NCBI GenBank assembly: GCA_003158175.1 | Contig: PMHJ01000049.1 | Span: forward strand, 1,079 to 65,078 | Source: Candidatus Cybelea septentrionalis | GTDB taxonomy: Bacteria > Vulcanimicrobiota > Vulcanimicrobiia > Vulcanimicrobiales > Vulcanimicrobiaceae | Direction of reading: 5' to 3' | DNA: 64,000 bases | Part shown: positions 45,943 to 51,129 of the stretch, one piece after another | Layout of the letters: each line of letters begins with the position of its first letter | Position numbering within the stretch: the first letter of the stretch is position 1 | Notes under the pieces: generated by a model | What the model was told of the DNA's origin: nothing | The model's input: only the letters and a program-made list of their open reading frames with translations | Databases searched by the model: none | Translations under genes and position numbers: made by a program

Positions 45943-46548
45943 TTAGCGGCTGGCGATCAGCCGTTTGGCTCCCACGTATCGCGCCGCCCAGTACGAGTCC
46001 GAAAGGTGGCTGACCATTACTCCGTGGCTCGAGCTCGCGTGGACGAACTGACCCTTTCCGAGATAGATGCCGACGTGCGAGACGCCGCCATACGTATCGA
46101 AGAAGACCAGATCTCCGGGGTGGGGACCACCCAGCGCGGGCCTGCCGACGTCATACTGCGCGTCGGCCGTACGGGGCAAACCGATGCCCAGCATCGCGAA
46201 GACGTGCTGGACGAAGCCCGAGCAATCGAATCCGGCCGTACTGGTGCCACCGAAGACATAGGGGACGCCCAAGAAGCGCAGCGCGCTACTGGTGAGGGCC
46301 CGTGCCATCCGGGAGGTTCTGGCGAGAATGCCACCGGCGAACCGCCCGATGCCGCCACGATGGCGGGTCGGCGTCGCCATGATCAGACTCGAGGTCCACT
46401 CCGCGACGTCAGGGCTGACGGCTTGGGCCTTGACCGGACTGGAGACTCCGGAGTACTGGACGCTGGACGTTAGGGTATCGGCTCGGGCAACAGAACTCAA
46501 GCCCGAAATAATTAGGGCAAAGGCCCCAATGGCTAACGCGTGACGCAA
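45943..46548 (-). CDS. NlpC/P60-family secreted cell-wall hydrolase
   Basis: Peptidoglycan D,L-endopeptidase of 201 aa. The signal peptide is LRHALAIGAFALIISGLSSV ending ARA. The C-terminal NlpC/P60 domain has the catalytic Cys in FDCSGFVQHVF, His in VSHVGIYLG and the third polar residue in FVHASSSHG. The start is TTG 46548, preceded by AGAGGAG; the longer frame to 46632 runs through the c-di-AMP aptamer and cannot be protein-coding at the same time. Regulation by c-di-AMP through the riboswitch just upstream is likely. Confidence 0.9.
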   Translation of the reverse strand: MRHALAIGAFALIISGLSSVARADTLTSSVQYSGVSSPVKAQAVSPDVAEWTSSLIMATPTRHRGGIGRFAGGILARTSRMARALTSSALRFLGVPYVFGGTSTAGFDCSGFVQHVFAMLGIGLPRTADAQYDVGRPALGGPHPGDLVFFDTYGGVSHVGIYLGKGQFVHASSSHGVMVSHLSDSYWAARYVGAKRLIASR

Positions 46549-46564
46549 GAAATCGCTCCTCTTC

Positions 46565-46686
46565 CACGACACTTGCGGGGTTAGTTGACGGGTTCGGACG
46601 TGAAAGAATCGCCCTAGGGCCGACCGGCCCATTCACCCCTACCGGGATATCCCCCGCTCGGGACATTCGTCCCGACTCAGTGACCT
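46565..46686 (-). promoter_or_regulatory. ydaO/yuaA-type c-di-AMP riboswitch
   Basis: On the minus strand the leader reads, in order: UCACUGAGU, a GUCGGGACGAAUGUCCCGA hairpin, AGCGGGGGAUA, GGGGUGAAU, then CCGAACCCGUCAACUAACC and CCGCAAGUG. These are the conserved blocks of the ydaO motif as I know it (GAGCGGGGGACCC, GGGGUGAAUC, CCGAAUCCGUCAGCUAACCU, CGUAAGCG). CACU and AGUG would close P1. The Shine-Dalgarno AGAGGAG lies immediately after the aptamer, so translational control is likely. In known cases c-di-AMP turns expression off, often of wall hydrolases, which is what this leader precedes. Confidence 0.85.
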
Positions 46687-46803
46687 TTTTAGGCAAGAGA
46701 GCCCCGACGACACTTTTACTCTGTCGGAAACCCTCGATGCGAGGCGCTTCGGCGTTGTGCCGCCGCGCCCTCCCGGGCCTCTCCGTTTCCGTATTTTCGG
46801 GTG

Positions 46804-48165
46804 TCACGGCGAGGCTAACCGCACGATCTCCTGCTCGATTCGTGAAGCAACCCGACTGGCGACGCTCTCGATCAGCGCTCGGTCCTCACCCTCCGCCATG
46901 ACGCGAATGAGCGGCTCGGTTCCGGAAGCCCGAATTAGCAGCCGCCCGGACGTGCCGAGATCTGCCTCGCCTGCCGCGATTGCATCCCGGACCGATTGCG
47001 ATGCTAAGACGCCGTCACCACTGCTGCGAACGTTCACGAGGACCTGTGGCGCAACCTGAACCTCCGCGACGAGTTCGCTTAGTCGCGTCTGCGTGGTCGC
47101 GAGGATGCCCAACAGCGTAACGGCAGTTCTTGGGCCATCGCCGGTCGTGTTGTACCGAAAGTCGATCAGATGCCCCGATTGTTCGCCGCCTAACGTATAT
47201 CCGTCTTTGCGCATTCGTTCGAGCACGAAGCGGTCGCCAACGGCGGTTCGGATCAGGGCGATGCCGTGGTTTCGCAGCGCGCGTTCGAAGCCGATGTTGC
47301 TCATGACGGTTGCAACGATCGTATCGCCCGCCAACTCGTAGCGCGCGTGCATCGCACACCCAATCGCGAACAGTACGTGGTCGCCGCTGGCGATCTTCCC
47401 GGTCTCGTCAACGAAGAGTGCACGATCCGCATCGCCGTCGAAAGCGACGCCCACAGCGCGACCGTTGCCGCTCGAGTTGCTGCCGAGAACCGCGGCTTGC
47501 AGCTGCTGCAGATCCGTCGCACCGCACTCGACGTTTATTCGAGATCCGTCATTTTCACAGTTGAGCTCGACGACGTTCGCGCCAAGTTTGCGCAGCACGT
47601 AGGGAGCGATCGCGTAGGCCGCGCCAAAGCCGGCATCGACGATAACCGTCAGCCCGCCCAGGTCGGGCTCCCCTGCGTAGAGCTCCTGGTAATAGTGTCG
47701 TGCCAGATTCTGCGCGGGCCGGGCGACGCCGACTGCGGTTCCAATCGGTCGCGGAAGGTTCGGCGAGTCCATTGCCGCCTCGATTTGCCGCTCGACCTCG
47801 TCCGACAGTTTGAAGCCGTCGCTTGCGAAAAACTTGATGCCATTATCGGGAACGGGATTGTGTGATGCACTGATTACGACGCCTGCCGCCGCTCCCGTGC
47901 AACGCGTGACGCATGCCACGGCGGGCGTCGGTACGACGCCGACCAATAACGCGTCGCTGCCAACCGAAGTAACGCCCGCCACGATCGCAGCCTCCAGCAT
48001 GCTGCCCGAGACTCGAGTGTCCCGTCCTATGATGATGGGGCGTTCCCGATCCCCGCCCTCATGCAGTACCGTCGCCGCGGCGCGACCCATGCGAAAGGCC
48101 AGCTCGGGCGTCAGCTCGCTGTTTGCCACCCCGCGCACACCGTCGGTTCCAAAGAGGCGGCTCAC
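46804..48165 (-). CDS. glmM: phosphoglucosamine mutase
   Basis: Interconverts glucosamine-6-P and glucosamine-1-P toward UDP-GlcNAc. The phosphoserine loop reads GVVISASHNPVPDNGIKFF, the Mg loop is AFDGDADRALFVDE, and the N-terminus LFGTDGVRGVAN is diagnostic. 453 aa. It overlaps the ybbR-like gene by four bases, completing the cdaA-cdaR-glmM operon in which GlmM also inhibits CdaA in some Firmicutes. About 115 bp separate its stop from the riboswitch; this stretch holds several GC-rich hairpins but no clear terminator. Confidence 0.97.
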   Translation of the reverse strand: MSRLFGTDGVRGVANSELTPELAFRMGRAAATVLHEGGDRERPIIIGRDTRVSGSMLEAAIVAGVTSVGSDALLVGVVPTPAVACVTRCTGAAAGVVISASHNPVPDNGIKFFASDGFKLSDEVERQIEAAMDSPNLPRPIGTAVGVARPAQNLARHYYQELYAGEPDLGGLTVIVDAGFGAAYAIAPYVLRKLGANVVELNCENDGSRINVECGATDLQQLQAAVLGSNSSGNGRAVGVAFDGDADRALFVDETGKIASGDHVLFAIGCAMHARYELAGDTIVATVMSNIGFERALRNHGIALIRTAVGDRFVLERMRKDGYTLGGEQSGHLIDFRYNTTGDGPRTAVTLLGILATTQTRLSELVAEVQVAPQVLVNVRSSGDGVLASQSVRDAIAAGEADLGTSGRLLIRASGTEPLIRVMAEGEDRALIESVASRVASRIEQEIVRLASP

Positions 48166-48821
48166 TTTGCGGCAGCAGTTACGAAGCGCATCTGGACGCG
48201 CACCAGATTGGGCGAGACCAAAGCACCCGCAATTTCGCCGCCCGAAGCGTCGACCGCGATCGGCCTGGCCATCTCGTCGATCGTCTCTGCCTCGCCGGGC
48301 AACTCAACGTCGACGTGAACGCCGGAGATCTGCGCCGAAGTCGCCGCACGCACCGTCGCGACGCTCGGACGGACCCGCACGGCGTTTACGACGACGCCGC
48401 GAGATGGGGAGCCGACGTAATGCACGACGATCGGAAATGCGTGCTCTTCGAGACGCTCGATCGTCAGCGTAACCGAGGCCGGACTAAGGCTCTGCACGGC
48501 AACTTCGGGCGCCACCAGCTGCACCGGGACGTTATAGATTCCCTCGCCTTTGTTCGAGAGGTCCAGCACCGCCTTGATCTCGTCTGGCTTAATGCCGGGC
48601 TCTCCGCGTTTGGTCGCTACGGTGACGACGGCCTCGCGGTCGGTAAAATGGGCGACGTAGCCTGTCGGCAAGTTTGCGGAAACGATCGGGACGGATAGCT
48701 GTTGGTCCACTGGTCCGCTCGCAAGAAACGGATTCGTTGCGAAGCGAAAATAGGCCCAGCCCACGATCGCAAGTCCGACGGCCAGCAGCTTGAGCCCGAA
48801 GTTCTTTCGAAGTACGTCCAT
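48162..48821 (-). CDS. cdaR: YbbR-like / CdaR protein
   Basis: Membrane-anchored regulator of the diadenylate cyclase. The N-terminal helix MDVLRKNFGLKLLAVGLAIV (residues 1-20) is followed by an extracytoplasmic region with YbbR repeats, for example LSVPIVSANLPTGYVAHF and VPVQLVAPE. At 219 aa it has about two repeats, fewer than B. subtilis CdaR. ATG 48821 overlaps the cdaA stop by one base; the frame is open further but that is cdaA DNA. Confidence 0.88.
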   Translation of the reverse strand: MDVLRKNFGLKLLAVGLAIVGWAYFRFATNPFLASGPVDQQLSVPIVSANLPTGYVAHFTDREAVVTVATKRGEPGIKPDEIKAVLDLSNKGEGIYNVPVQLVAPEVAVQSLSPASVTLTIERLEEHAFPIVVHYVGSPSRGVVVNAVRVRPSVATVRAATSAQISGVHVDVELPGEAETIDEMARPIAVDASGGEIAGALVSPNLVRVQMRFVTAAAK

Positions 48822-49711
48822 CAGGGTAGGAGATCGGTCCACGAAACGCGCGGCTTGGAGCGTTCGCGCGGCACGCGCAGCCGTGCTCGGAGGTGCGCGA
48901 TCAAATCGTTTGGCCGACGCCGTTCGTGGCGAGGGGGCCGCGTCACCGCGAGAAGCATCTTGACCAAACGTTGCTCGTCGTCGACGGGCCGAGAGAGCTT
49001 TCCGGCGCGCGCGATTCGTATATTTGCGCTCTCCTCCGAAACGACGAGTACCACGGCATCCGTCTGTTCGCTCAAACCGAGTGCCGCTCGATGGCGCGTT
49101 CCCAAACGCACGCCGGTCAGCGCTCGTTCGGCGAGCGGAAGCAGGCACCCAGCCGCCTCGAGACGGCCTTCATGCACGATGGCCGCGCCGTCGTGTAGCG
49201 GAGAGGCCGGGGTGAAGATCGTCAGCAGCAGTTCTTCGGAAATCTCTGCGTGCAAGAACGTACCGGTTTCGCAAATCTCCCGAAGCCCGCTCTGCTGCTC
49301 GATCACGATCAAAGCGCCTCGTCGATTCTCGCTCAGGTAGAACGCGGCGCGCGCGAGTGCTGCGATCGTCCGGTCTTCGGGTCGGCCCGGCCACGGCTCC
49401 CTTTCGTCGCCCGTCATTCGAAAGAGTCCTCCCCGCCCGATCTGCTCCAGCGCGCGCCGCAGCTCGGGCTGGAAAACGATCGGGATCGCGACTAGCACGC
49501 CGACGACGAGAAGGCGTAAAATCGTGCCGAGGAGATTGAGATGGAAGAGCGTTGCGATGCCGAGTAATCCCACCAGCACCAGAATTCCGATGAGTATTTG
49601 CACGGCTCGAGTGCCGCGAATGAGCAAAAGCACGTAATAGATCAGGATGCTCGTCGCGATGACGTCCACGACGTCGGAGATGGTAACGTACTGCGAAATG
49701 CCGCTAAGCAT
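48821..49711 (-). CDS. cdaA: diadenylate cyclase CdaA
   Basis: Makes cyclic di-AMP from two ATP. Three N-terminal membrane helices (about 13-32, 38-58, 62-80) lead to the DAC domain. Its catalytic motifs are LHDGAAIVHEGR (DGA) and GTRHRAALG (RHR). Length 296 aa, slightly longer than the 273 of B. subtilis CdaA owing to a basic C-terminal tail. It is transcribed with cdaR and glmM and preceded by an overlapping unknown gene. Confidence 0.95.
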   Translation of the reverse strand: MLSGISQYVTISDVVDVIATSILIYYVLLLIRGTRAVQILIGILVLVGLLGIATLFHLNLLGTILRLLVVGVLVAIPIVFQPELRRALEQIGRGGLFRMTGDEREPWPGRPEDRTIAALARAAFYLSENRRGALIVIEQQSGLREICETGTFLHAEISEELLLTIFTPASPLHDGAAIVHEGRLEAAGCLLPLAERALTGVRLGTRHRAALGLSEQTDAVVLVVSEESANIRIARAGKLSRPVDDEQRLVKMLLAVTRPPRHERRRPNDLIAHLRARLRVPRERSKPRVSWTDLLP

Positions 49712-50234
49712 CGATCAGCAACTCTAAAATGCGATCCACGCCGATTTCCGGCGCGCTCATTCCGGAAGCGGCAATCTTGGCCGACAGCCTCGGCGTCAAG
49801 GGCGACAGCAGCTCGGCCCGCCGTCCGCTGCAAAAGCGGCGGAGCTCGACGTCGACCAATCTCATGATGATCTCAATACCACCGGAATCCGGATCCCATT
49901 CGATGATCGCACCCTGCGGGCACGGGCGGCAGGCGAGTACGCCCATGGGACGCCCCGGGCCGCCGAGTGCGGCGTAAAGGCTCGGCAAGGCTTCGGGGAC
50001 CGTAGGGAAAACTGCCCAGGCAATGACTGCCGTTTCGTATGCGACTTCGGTCGGGGCGATGGAGATATTGGGAAGATCGACGCCATCGGGTAACTCGAGC
50101 AGAGCGTACGAACGCCCTGCGGACGGATTGAAGCGCCACATCACGCGGCCGTTTCGGGCTCGCGCGATGCCTTCGATTGCATCTCGGCGCGAATCGTCCG
50201 GACTCCCCGCAATGCTGATGGTAAGGTAGACCAC
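49704..50234 (-). CDS. unknown protein coupled to cdaA
   Basis: A 176-residue protein from the GTG at 50234, overlapping the cdaA start by eight bases. I do not recognise a family. It looks globular and cytoplasmic, with segments VVYLTISIAGSPDDSRRDA, ALLELPDGVDLPNISIAP and a C-terminal helix ILELLIDA. The frame is open further upstream (to 50600) across the divergent rsgA region, so the start is uncertain. Position and overlap suggest a role tied to c-di-AMP synthesis. Confidence 0.6.
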   Translation of the reverse strand: MVYLTISIAGSPDDSRRDAIEGIARARNGRVMWRFNPSAGRSYALLELPDGVDLPNISIAPTEVAYETAVIAWAVFPTVPEALPSLYAALGGPGRPMGVLACRPCPQGAIIEWDPDSGGIEIIMRLVDVELRRFCSGRRAELLSPLTPRLSAKIAASGMSAPEIGVDRILELLIDA

Positions 50235-50328
50235 GTTACATCGAGCGTTCGTCGTCTCCACCGGAAAGAACTCCGCATGGATATCGATCGACGGCGAAAC
50301 GCTGCCGCGAATCGCGCAACTGCGACGC

Positions 50329-51129
50329 ATGACGGGACGACGCTCGATGCCGGTTCCGGGTGACGTCGTGCACGTAAGCATTCTGGAGGATGGACAAGCG
50401 CTTGTCGATCGCATCGAGCCGCGCATCGGCACGCTCGAGCGACGTAGCTCCAGCGGGCGCGCGAAGACCATTGCCGCCAACGTCGATTTGCTGGTTGCCG
50501 TAACCGCGCTCGCTAACCCCGCTCCCCGCCTAGCGACGCTCGACCAACTTCTAGCATTCGCCGAGCTCGAGGAGATTGAGGCCGCCGTCGTCTTCACCAA
50601 GCCGGACCTCGCCGAGCCGGCGCGGGCGCGCGATCTGATCGACCTCTACGCGAGTCTGGAGTATCCAAGTATTTCGATCAACCCCAAGAGTGGCGAGATC
50701 GATCCTCTACGGCATCTTTTACGCGACCGGCGCGCGTTGCTCGTCGGTAACTCGGGCGTCGGGAAGAGCACGATCTTTCGGGCGCTTGGCGGCGACACGG
50801 TCGTTGGCGAGGTCTCCCGGCACGGGCTCGGCCGGCAGACCACGACCGCCGCGCGACTCTATCGAACCCCAAACGGCTTCTTGATCGATAGCCCCGGCAT
50901 CAACGAGTTTGGCCTCGGTCGAGTCGACCCGGGCCTCTTGGCCCACAGTTTCAGGGAGATGCGACCGCTCGTAGCGGACTGCCGCTTCACGGATTGCACC
51001 CATGTCCAGGAGCCCGACTGCACCATCAAGGAGGCGGCCTCAGCCGGTCGGATCGCCCAAAGCCGCTACGAAAGTTATTGTCGAATCCTGCTCGCTTCGC
51101 TGGACACCCGTCGCGAGACCCTGCTATGA
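50329..51129 (+). CDS. rsgA: ribosome small subunit-dependent GTPase A
   Basis: Circularly permuted GTPase for late 30S assembly. G4 FTKPDL precedes G1 GNSGVGKST and G3 DSPG. The C-terminal zinc site is CRFTDCTHVQEPDC (Cys, Cys, His, Cys). The first ATG is at 50329, giving 266 aa, but the same frame upstream encodes an apparent continuation of the N-terminal OB fold (AFVVSTGKNSAWISIDGE, LPRIAQLRRMTGR) back to about 50240 with no ATG, GTG or TTG. The real start may be non-canonical. The rpsT promoter lies in its 3' end. Confidence 0.92.
   Translation: MTGRRSMPVPGDVVHVSILEDGQALVDRIEPRIGTLERRSSSGRAKTIAANVDLLVAVTALANPAPRLATLDQLLAFAELEEIEAAVVFTKPDLAEPARARDLIDLYASLEYPSISINPKSGEIDPLRHLLRDRRALLVGNSGVGKSTIFRALGGDTVVGEVSRHGLGRQTTTAARLYRTPNGFLIDSPGINEFGLGRVDPGLLAHSFREMRPLVADCRFTDCTHVQEPDCTIKEAASAGRIAQSRYESYCRILLASLDTRRETLL

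Follow-up and report, generated by a model that had tools for sequence, protein, structure and literature searches.

A c-di-AMP synthase operon that probably ends in a ydaO riboswitch acting on translation of a wall hydrolase in Candidatus Cybelea septentrionalis and related Eremiobacterota

Introduction

Cyclic di-AMP (c-di-AMP) is known mostly from monoderm bacteria, and in many cases it is linked to the cell wall only indirectly. In the soil bacterium Candidatus Cybelea septentrionalis, the minus strand of a 64,000-nucleotide (nt) stretch of contig PMHJ01000049.1 (assembly GCA_003158175.1; the whole stretch is called the window here) carries, one after another, a diadenylate cyclase gene (cdaA), a ybbR/cdaR-like gene, a phosphoglucosamine mutase gene (glmM), a leader of the ydaO riboswitch type and a gene for an NlpC/P60 wall hydrolase (nlpC). 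The question raised by this locus is whether an RNA that senses the product of the first gene controls the last one, and by what means. An original prediction, made from the letters of the window, had given this gene order and read it as a compact circuit of messenger synthesis, precursor supply and messenger-gated wall cutting in a probable diderm. Our study compared the locus with its counterparts in 149 genomes of the phylum Eremiobacterota, and we consider it probable that the window encodes one minus-strand operon, cdaA-cdaR-glmM-[ydaO]-nlpC, whose riboswitch would be a translational OFF switch acting through a pseudoknot formed on the Shine-Dalgarno sequence of nlpC.

The aptamer and its covarying pseudoknot

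The conserved blocks from which a ydaO leader had been proposed are part of a significant covariance-model match: in an Infernal search (cmscan), RF00379 is matched over its full length (model positions 1-134) at 46554-46692 on the minus strand, with 77.2 bits and E 3.3e-16 against a gathering score of 38, and this copy is the sole ydaO match in the genome. By its class membership, the RNA is a putative binder of c-di-AMP. For comparison, we analysed 109 riboswitch places from the survey, namely the window and 108 fetched stretches, of which 105 belong to the class of the window (families f1-f3; 95 genomes). In the covariance-model alignment, the 5' strand of P1, CACU (46679-46682), pairs with AGUG at 46570-46573, and P1 covaries in relatives, where none of 5000 permutations was as good over 60 pairs; this helix served as a positive control.

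The loop 5' of GAACCCG is complementary to the tail 3' of P1. In the window, the loop strand UUCUUUCACG (46599-46608, minus) and the tail strand CGUGGAAGAG (46559-46568, minus) form 10 contiguous pairs, including two G-U pairs, and nine of them are without stem conflict, the last base of the loop strand (46599) being shared with a hairpin stem. The window thus has the loop-tail pseudoknot of the solved ydaO aptamers, and the crystallised ydaO RNA of Ren and Patel, as given in the relevant passage of PMC5393176, has ACUCCUUCG as its loop strand and CGAAGGAG as its tail strand. The complementarity is maintained in relatives by covariation. Over 84 distinct pairs, the loop-tail helix score was 16.44 for matched strands versus 14.43 (standard deviation 0.24) for permuted ones, with 0 of 20,000 permutations as good, and in the subset of 35 pairs with no AAAGAG in the tail it was 16.31 versus 13.69, again with 0 of 20,000. 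In this test, the loop segments included some bases from the adjoining stem, and the tails up to two from P1; after trimming of both, the scores were 15.37 versus 13.59 (78 pairs) and, for tails lacking AAAGAG, 14.91 versus 12.05 (32 pairs), with 0 of 20,000 permutations as good in either case. All registers were tried for matched and permuted pairs alike. In the alignment used (A1), which leaves out three of the 109 places, two shortened by contig ends and one duplicate, the pseudoknot strands are shifted by one or two bases in some rows, and column-wise pair counts were avoided. Compensated loop/tail variants include CUUUC/GAAAG, UUCUUCC/GGAAGAA and CUCUUCC/GGGAGAG, and some copies have wholly different yet complementary strands (CGGGCA/UGUCCG, ACGGGA/UCCCGU).

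At its 3' end, this tail strand extends into AGAGGAG (46556-46562, minus), the Shine-Dalgarno sequence of nlpC, which is complementary to the canonical 3' end of 16S rRNA. The tail strand and the 16S-complementary stretch overlap by at least 2 nt in all 90 distinct nlpC-linked sequences, where 68 of 90 would be expected from a helix placed randomly in the same tail. An overlap of 3 nt or more is seen in 79 of the 90, against 59.5 expected. The Shine-Dalgarno window starts at a median of 6 nt (range 2-8) past the P1 reference point.

Two other pairings that would give the leader an opposite sign or a different expression platform are present in the window: c-di-AMP could break a helix between the 3' strand of P1 (CGCAAG) and the start region (CUUGCG), making an ON switch, or the 5' flank GCUCUCUU could serve as an anti-Shine-Dalgarno. 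We find both very improbable. CGCAAG and CUUGCG do occur together in 30 of 92 sequences, but 1032 of 5000 permutations were as good for this helix (66 pairs), that is, it does not covary. For the 5' flank helix, 4513 of 5000 permutations were as good (91 pairs), a test of little power given how hardly the Shine-Dalgarno varies; within the window, 512 of 5000 shuffled sequences gave as good a duplex, and near relatives such as G041, G042 and G052 do not retain the flank. Both helices were rejected for want of covariation, as the P1 control passes the same test.

The start codon of the hydrolase and the room for a terminator

The end of the hydrolase gene at 45943 agrees with the original prediction, whereas the ATG at 46632 from which it had been opened sits within the aptamer. 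The most likely start of nlpC is UUG 46548-46546, spaced 7 nt downstream from the Shine-Dalgarno sequence, and the reading frame (45943-46548, minus) then opens with an apparent signal peptide, as judged by eye. Its product belongs to the NlpC/P60 family (PF00877, 115.5 bits) and contains SHVGIY and the DCSG motif with the catalytic cysteine; among relatives, a DCSG-type motif was found in 88 of 91 proteins and an HVGIY-like motif in 80 of 91.

In relatives, starts were searched in the NlpC frame 14-45 nt past the CG anchor of P1, taking the best Shine-Dalgarno spacing. An in-frame start was present in 92 of the 93 nlpC-linked copies, the first one lying no more than 32 nt from the anchor, and in 84 of these 92 an in-frame stop within the aptamer closes the upstream frame, 59 of the 84 having no ATG or GTG ahead of the proximal start. 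The called starts are TTG in 89 copies, ATG in two and GTG in one; in the 93rd copy (G129) none was called, and a GTG stands at that site. At the same loci, TTG makes up 3 of 77 callable starts of glmM, 2 of 71 of cdaA and 6 of 77 of cdaR, which mostly use ATG or GTG. The UUG start of nlpC is therefore nearly invariant across copies. To our knowledge, and with no dedicated literature search made, a comparably near-fixed weak start on a hydrolase gene has not been described. Retention of UUG through pairing with the CAA of P1 was considered and rejected, because UUG is mostly retained also where P1 is of the GCAGG or GTAGG type.

The position of the start also bears on whether c-di-AMP acts instead on transcription, by causing premature termination, either intrinsic or through Rho, within the leader or the first part of nlpC. 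Termination is the mode described for Bacillus subtilis (kimA) in the passages cited from PMC9960051 and the one reported for the Streptomyces rpfA switch in those from PMC10117811, and among 20 ydaO copies that we fetched from cdaA-bearing genomes outside Eremiobacterota, five (L255, L257, L258, L268 and L270) have a U-tract ahead of the gene. In the window, however, the minus strand between glmM and nlpC contains no terminator-like site, nor a promoter-like one, and an intrinsic terminator would have no room in 92 of 93 relatives, whose start is at most 32 nt past the anchor. These observations make a transcriptional switch unlikely, while its Rho-dependent variant is untouched by them. A translational riboswitch would hold its Shine-Dalgarno in a ligand-stabilised helix and would lack a terminator; here no terminator was found, and the Shine-Dalgarno overlap is above chance but partial.

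Conservation of the arrangement in Eremiobacterota

RF00379 was matched in 99 of the 149 genomes, with filters that lose some weak matches, and the DAC domain in 131. Among the 105 places in the class of the window, nlpC follows the switch in 93, two could not be judged and 10 are other copies. Upstream of the 93 nlpC-linked copies, cdaA lies within 5.9 kb in 77, is absent in three, and in 13 less than 3000 nt of sequence extends upstream; where at least 3000 nt are available, cdaA is present in 75 of 78. At 85 of the 105 places, no more than 400 nt separate glmM from the aptamer, and the gene order is retained across the three families; the single-contig genome G118 has the complete arrangement. 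The arrangement is real, conserved and more than chance, and the compact circuit that the adjacency had suggested withstood the computational tests applied and is favoured by this synteny.

Adjacency could also be a matter of inheritance only, with nlpC transcribed from its own promoter and the cdaA operon ending at glmM. This would suit the spacer between glmM and the aptamer (46693-46803, minus, in the window), which in relatives commonly holds a stable hairpin of variable sequence (median z -1.56 over 75 of 85 spacers, the 10 shorter than 25 nt having been left out of the folding, versus about 0 in 218 random 70-nt windows that are mostly coding). It would also suit four further genomes where glmM and the switch are separated by an inserted gene, which encodes an M61 peptidase in three cases and is PMT-like in the fourth. 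On the other hand, seven genomes (G064, G065, G066, G067, G069, G115 and G116) have the aptamer model starting 9-17 nt behind the glmM stop, and in G112 the called glmM stop is at P1, so that there is no space for a promoter or a terminator and the switch must be transcribed either through from glmM or from a promoter inside glmM. Judged from these distances, read-through from glmM is almost forced in those eight genomes, and together with the gene order kept across three families, they lead us to regard neighbourhood without a circuit as improbable.

Several observations weigh against a translational switch of this kind or against its generality. The overlap of the pseudoknot with the Shine-Dalgarno exceeds chance only moderately, because the tail and the Shine-Dalgarno share one short purine-rich stretch; it is supporting evidence and not proof, and its high chance expectation slightly reduces our confidence in the mechanism. 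Occlusion may be partial, as many relatives have a helix that takes in GAAAGA but only part of GGAG. The loop-tail helix is weak in a few copies (four pairs in G065:C65, five in G010), and the permutation test ignores relatedness. The starts in relatives were chosen by their distance from the Shine-Dalgarno. The 16S 3'-end string used was the canonical anti-Shine-Dalgarno; its longer form was not found in the organism's own assembly, and the shorter form is present in 6 of 14 relatives. The predicted minimum free energy fold of the leader in the window lacks the aptamer fold and is about as stable as shuffled sequences (z -0.41), a result that is uninformative when taken plainly, as the folding program cannot represent pseudoknots. 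Finally, in G058, G078 and G080 cdaA is missing upstream of the switch and nlpC, and the three ydaO copies of G028 adjoin neither nlpC nor glmM.

Copies at other loci were also recorded. The four from other classes of the phylum are without an nlpC match, and in three of them the chosen downstream open reading frame (ORF) has Pfam matches to a lytic transglycosylase domain, alanine racemase and KdpA, respectively. Second ydaO copies in G065, G096 and G098 (L186, L177 and L173) precede a GT4-type glycosyltransferase, assigned by Pfam for L186 and L177 and by a similar N-terminus for L173; their pseudoknot strands are entirely different and still complementary, with 4-6 pairs. Other copies in G017 and G028 (L166 and L160) precede proteins of the Phosphoesterase family (PF04185).

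Genes of the locus and the diderm host

Profile and covariance-model matches confirm the minus-strand order of the locus. The first product, encoded at 48821-49711 (minus, ATG start), scores 215.4 bits with the NCBIfam equivalog TIGR00159, whose cut-off is 188.8, and matches both the DAC domain (PF02457) and the membrane N-domain CdaA_N (PF19293) of Pfam; DGA and RHR motifs are in its translation, as in all 75 relatives checked. By these marks, the predicted protein is a CdaA diadenylate cyclase, that is, a c-di-AMP synthase.

The second gene (48162-48821, minus) is the weak point of the locus, and we call its product YbbR-like only. The ORF listing opens this frame at GTG 49148; we adopted ATG 48821 instead, which overlaps the cdaA stop (TGATG) and gives a product of 219 residues. 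The ybbR/cdaR label that it had been given draws support from its size, its position and its hydrophobic N-terminus, which are consistent with YbbR/CdaR, and from a search against PDB sequences (E up to 1), which returned two chains only, both YbbR (2kpu and 3lyw, E 0.0022 and 0.0024). No Pfam or NCBIfam family was matched by this divergent sequence, and the YbbR domain PF07949 has zero matches across the whole genome.

The third gene, glmM (46804-48165, minus), starts with a GTG that overlaps the preceding stop (GTGA), and its product scores 519.4 bits with the equivalog TIGR01455 (cut-off 447.55). Overlaps of a few bases, such as TGATG and GTGA, are expected for coupled operon genes. After nlpC, the next gene is a tRNA-Gln. 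At the other end, an ORF at 49704-50600 overlaps the start of cdaA by 8 nt and is without a Pfam or NCBIfam match; it is possibly the first gene of the operon.

An Omp85 protein is present in the genome, which makes an outer membrane probable; the search was positive in 7 of 14 control genomes and negative in those of B. subtilis, Corynebacterium glutamicum and Lactococcus lactis. Together with the outer membrane that the cited passage of PMC9758169 describes in a cultured Eremiobacterota strain, this agrees with the diderm nature that had been presumed. For c-di-AMP turnover, the genome encodes one DHH/DHHA1 protein of NrnA type, a candidate phosphodiesterase that falls far below the cut-off of that NCBIfam family, and no PgpH-type 7TM-HD protein was found in it. 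Two TrkA_C stretches lie close together on contig C35.

Comparison with known systems

The nearest counterpart is the ydaO/kimA-type switch of C. glutamicum, a c-di-AMP OFF switch that also precedes an NlpC/P60 gene. In the passages of PMC9960051 drawn on here, ydaO switches are considered OFF switches, this one is said to regulate nlpC most likely at translation, which its authors call unprecedented for c-di-AMP riboswitches, and a CTCC:GGAG pairing with the ribosome-binding site is suggested. Pairing with the Shine-Dalgarno is a suggestion there, whereas here the pairing covaries over the 84 distinct pairs; the host is a monoderm, the cyclase gene is disA, and nlpC belongs to a separate seven-gene operon. 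The Gram-positive cdaA-cdaR-glmM operon has the same gene order as the window, where a ydaO switch and nlpC are added. The crystallised ydaO RNA shares the loop-to-3'-tail complementarity, which is a structural element of the aptamer there, while in our locus the 3' strand overlaps the Shine-Dalgarno. The Streptomyces rpfA switch is likewise an example of c-di-AMP control of a wall hydrolase; it differs in the premature termination reported for it (PMC10117811) and in its hydrolase family and locus. Leptospira is a diderm with CdaA and CdaR, and the portion of PMC12974146 cited here describes a cdaA operon without a GlmM homolog and no c-di-AMP riboswitch identified.

The arrangement at cdaA appears different outside the phylum. 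A strict ydaO pattern found no copy at 61 cdaA loci from outside Eremiobacterota (flanks of up to 6 kb; L018-L081 minus L020 and L028, which are named Eremiobacterota, and L064), the pattern recovering 104 of the 109 known copies and having been tuned on Eremiobacterota. A looser pattern matched L036, L046, L052 and L071, in which cmscan found no ydaO, and cmscan of 15 of the 61 loci found none in any of the 15. In seven of these 15 (L046, L052, L031, L032, L018, L023 and L039), a glmS ribozyme follows cdaA at about 2.3-3 kb, and this distance, taken alone, fits a site behind glmM, where Eremiobacteria carry ydaO-nlpC. The excluded L064 comes from a record named Proteobacteria (Centralia_MAG_155) whose ydaO match has the same contig number and coordinates as that of G025, so that it is probably misnamed. 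ydaO occurs somewhere in 28 of 49 non-Eremiobacterota cdaA genomes searched, a number that includes the genome of L064, probably an Eremiobacterota. Of the 20 copies fetched from such genomes, 18 were scored for the pseudoknot, and five (L260, L265, L266, L267 and L269) combine a start 24-32 nt past the anchor with an overlap between a pseudoknot strand and the Shine-Dalgarno. The layout is therefore not confined to Eremiobacterota. A published table of RNAs with 3D structures enters RF00379 under helix Type 1 (PMC7657543). This type presumably denotes a pseudoknot.

Proposed mechanism and significance

In the mechanism that we propose, the first gene would make c-di-AMP and the RNA just ahead of the last gene would sense it. 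At high c-di-AMP, the aptamer would close, P1 would zip up and the pseudoknot UUCUUUCACG:CGUGGAAGAG would be held; as its 3' strand runs into the Shine-Dalgarno of nlpC, ribosomes would fail to initiate at the weak UUG and wall cutting would stop. At low c-di-AMP, P1 and the pseudoknot would loosen and the hydrolase would be made. The aptamer would double as its own expression platform, with a terminator unnecessary. CdaR and GlmM act on CdaA in some Gram-positives, according to the passages cited from PMC12974146; should they do so here, more GlmM would lead to less c-di-AMP and hence to more hydrolase, coupling precursor supply to wall opening, a logic that combines this published action with the published OFF behaviour of ydaO.

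We lean, with less assurance, towards extending this proposal to the whole class as a one-transcript loop in which c-di-AMP blocks translation of the hydrolase, the pseudoknot being a ribosome lock and the UUG a second brake, and which has parallels outside the phylum. As the layout recurs in some copies there, the ydaO class may have translational control as a second mode that has gone largely unnoticed.

In the open-licence full-text literature, we found nothing on Eremiobacterota with c-di-AMP or with a riboswitch, and glmM, NlpC, riboswitch and diadenylate cyclase occur together only in PMC9960051. The parts and the logic are known separately; what is new is that one locus unites them, that this locus is conserved in a diderm phylum and that the UUG start is nearly fixed. 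Likewise, the pseudoknot itself is known; the novelty is that, in a named and conserved locus, it appears to serve as a ribosome lock.

These results bring a synthase, a wall-precursor enzyme, a sensor RNA and a wall hydrolase together in one locus of a diderm phylum with a cultured member, Vulcanimicrobium alpinus, described in the cited passage of PMC9758169, and the shared locus and the cultured member make the link from c-di-AMP to the wall directly testable. The layout also gives concrete structural form to the control of translation by a ydaO switch that was reported in C. glutamicum. For these bacteria, it means that c-di-AMP can probably turn off wall cutting by an enzyme whose gene lies in the same cluster.

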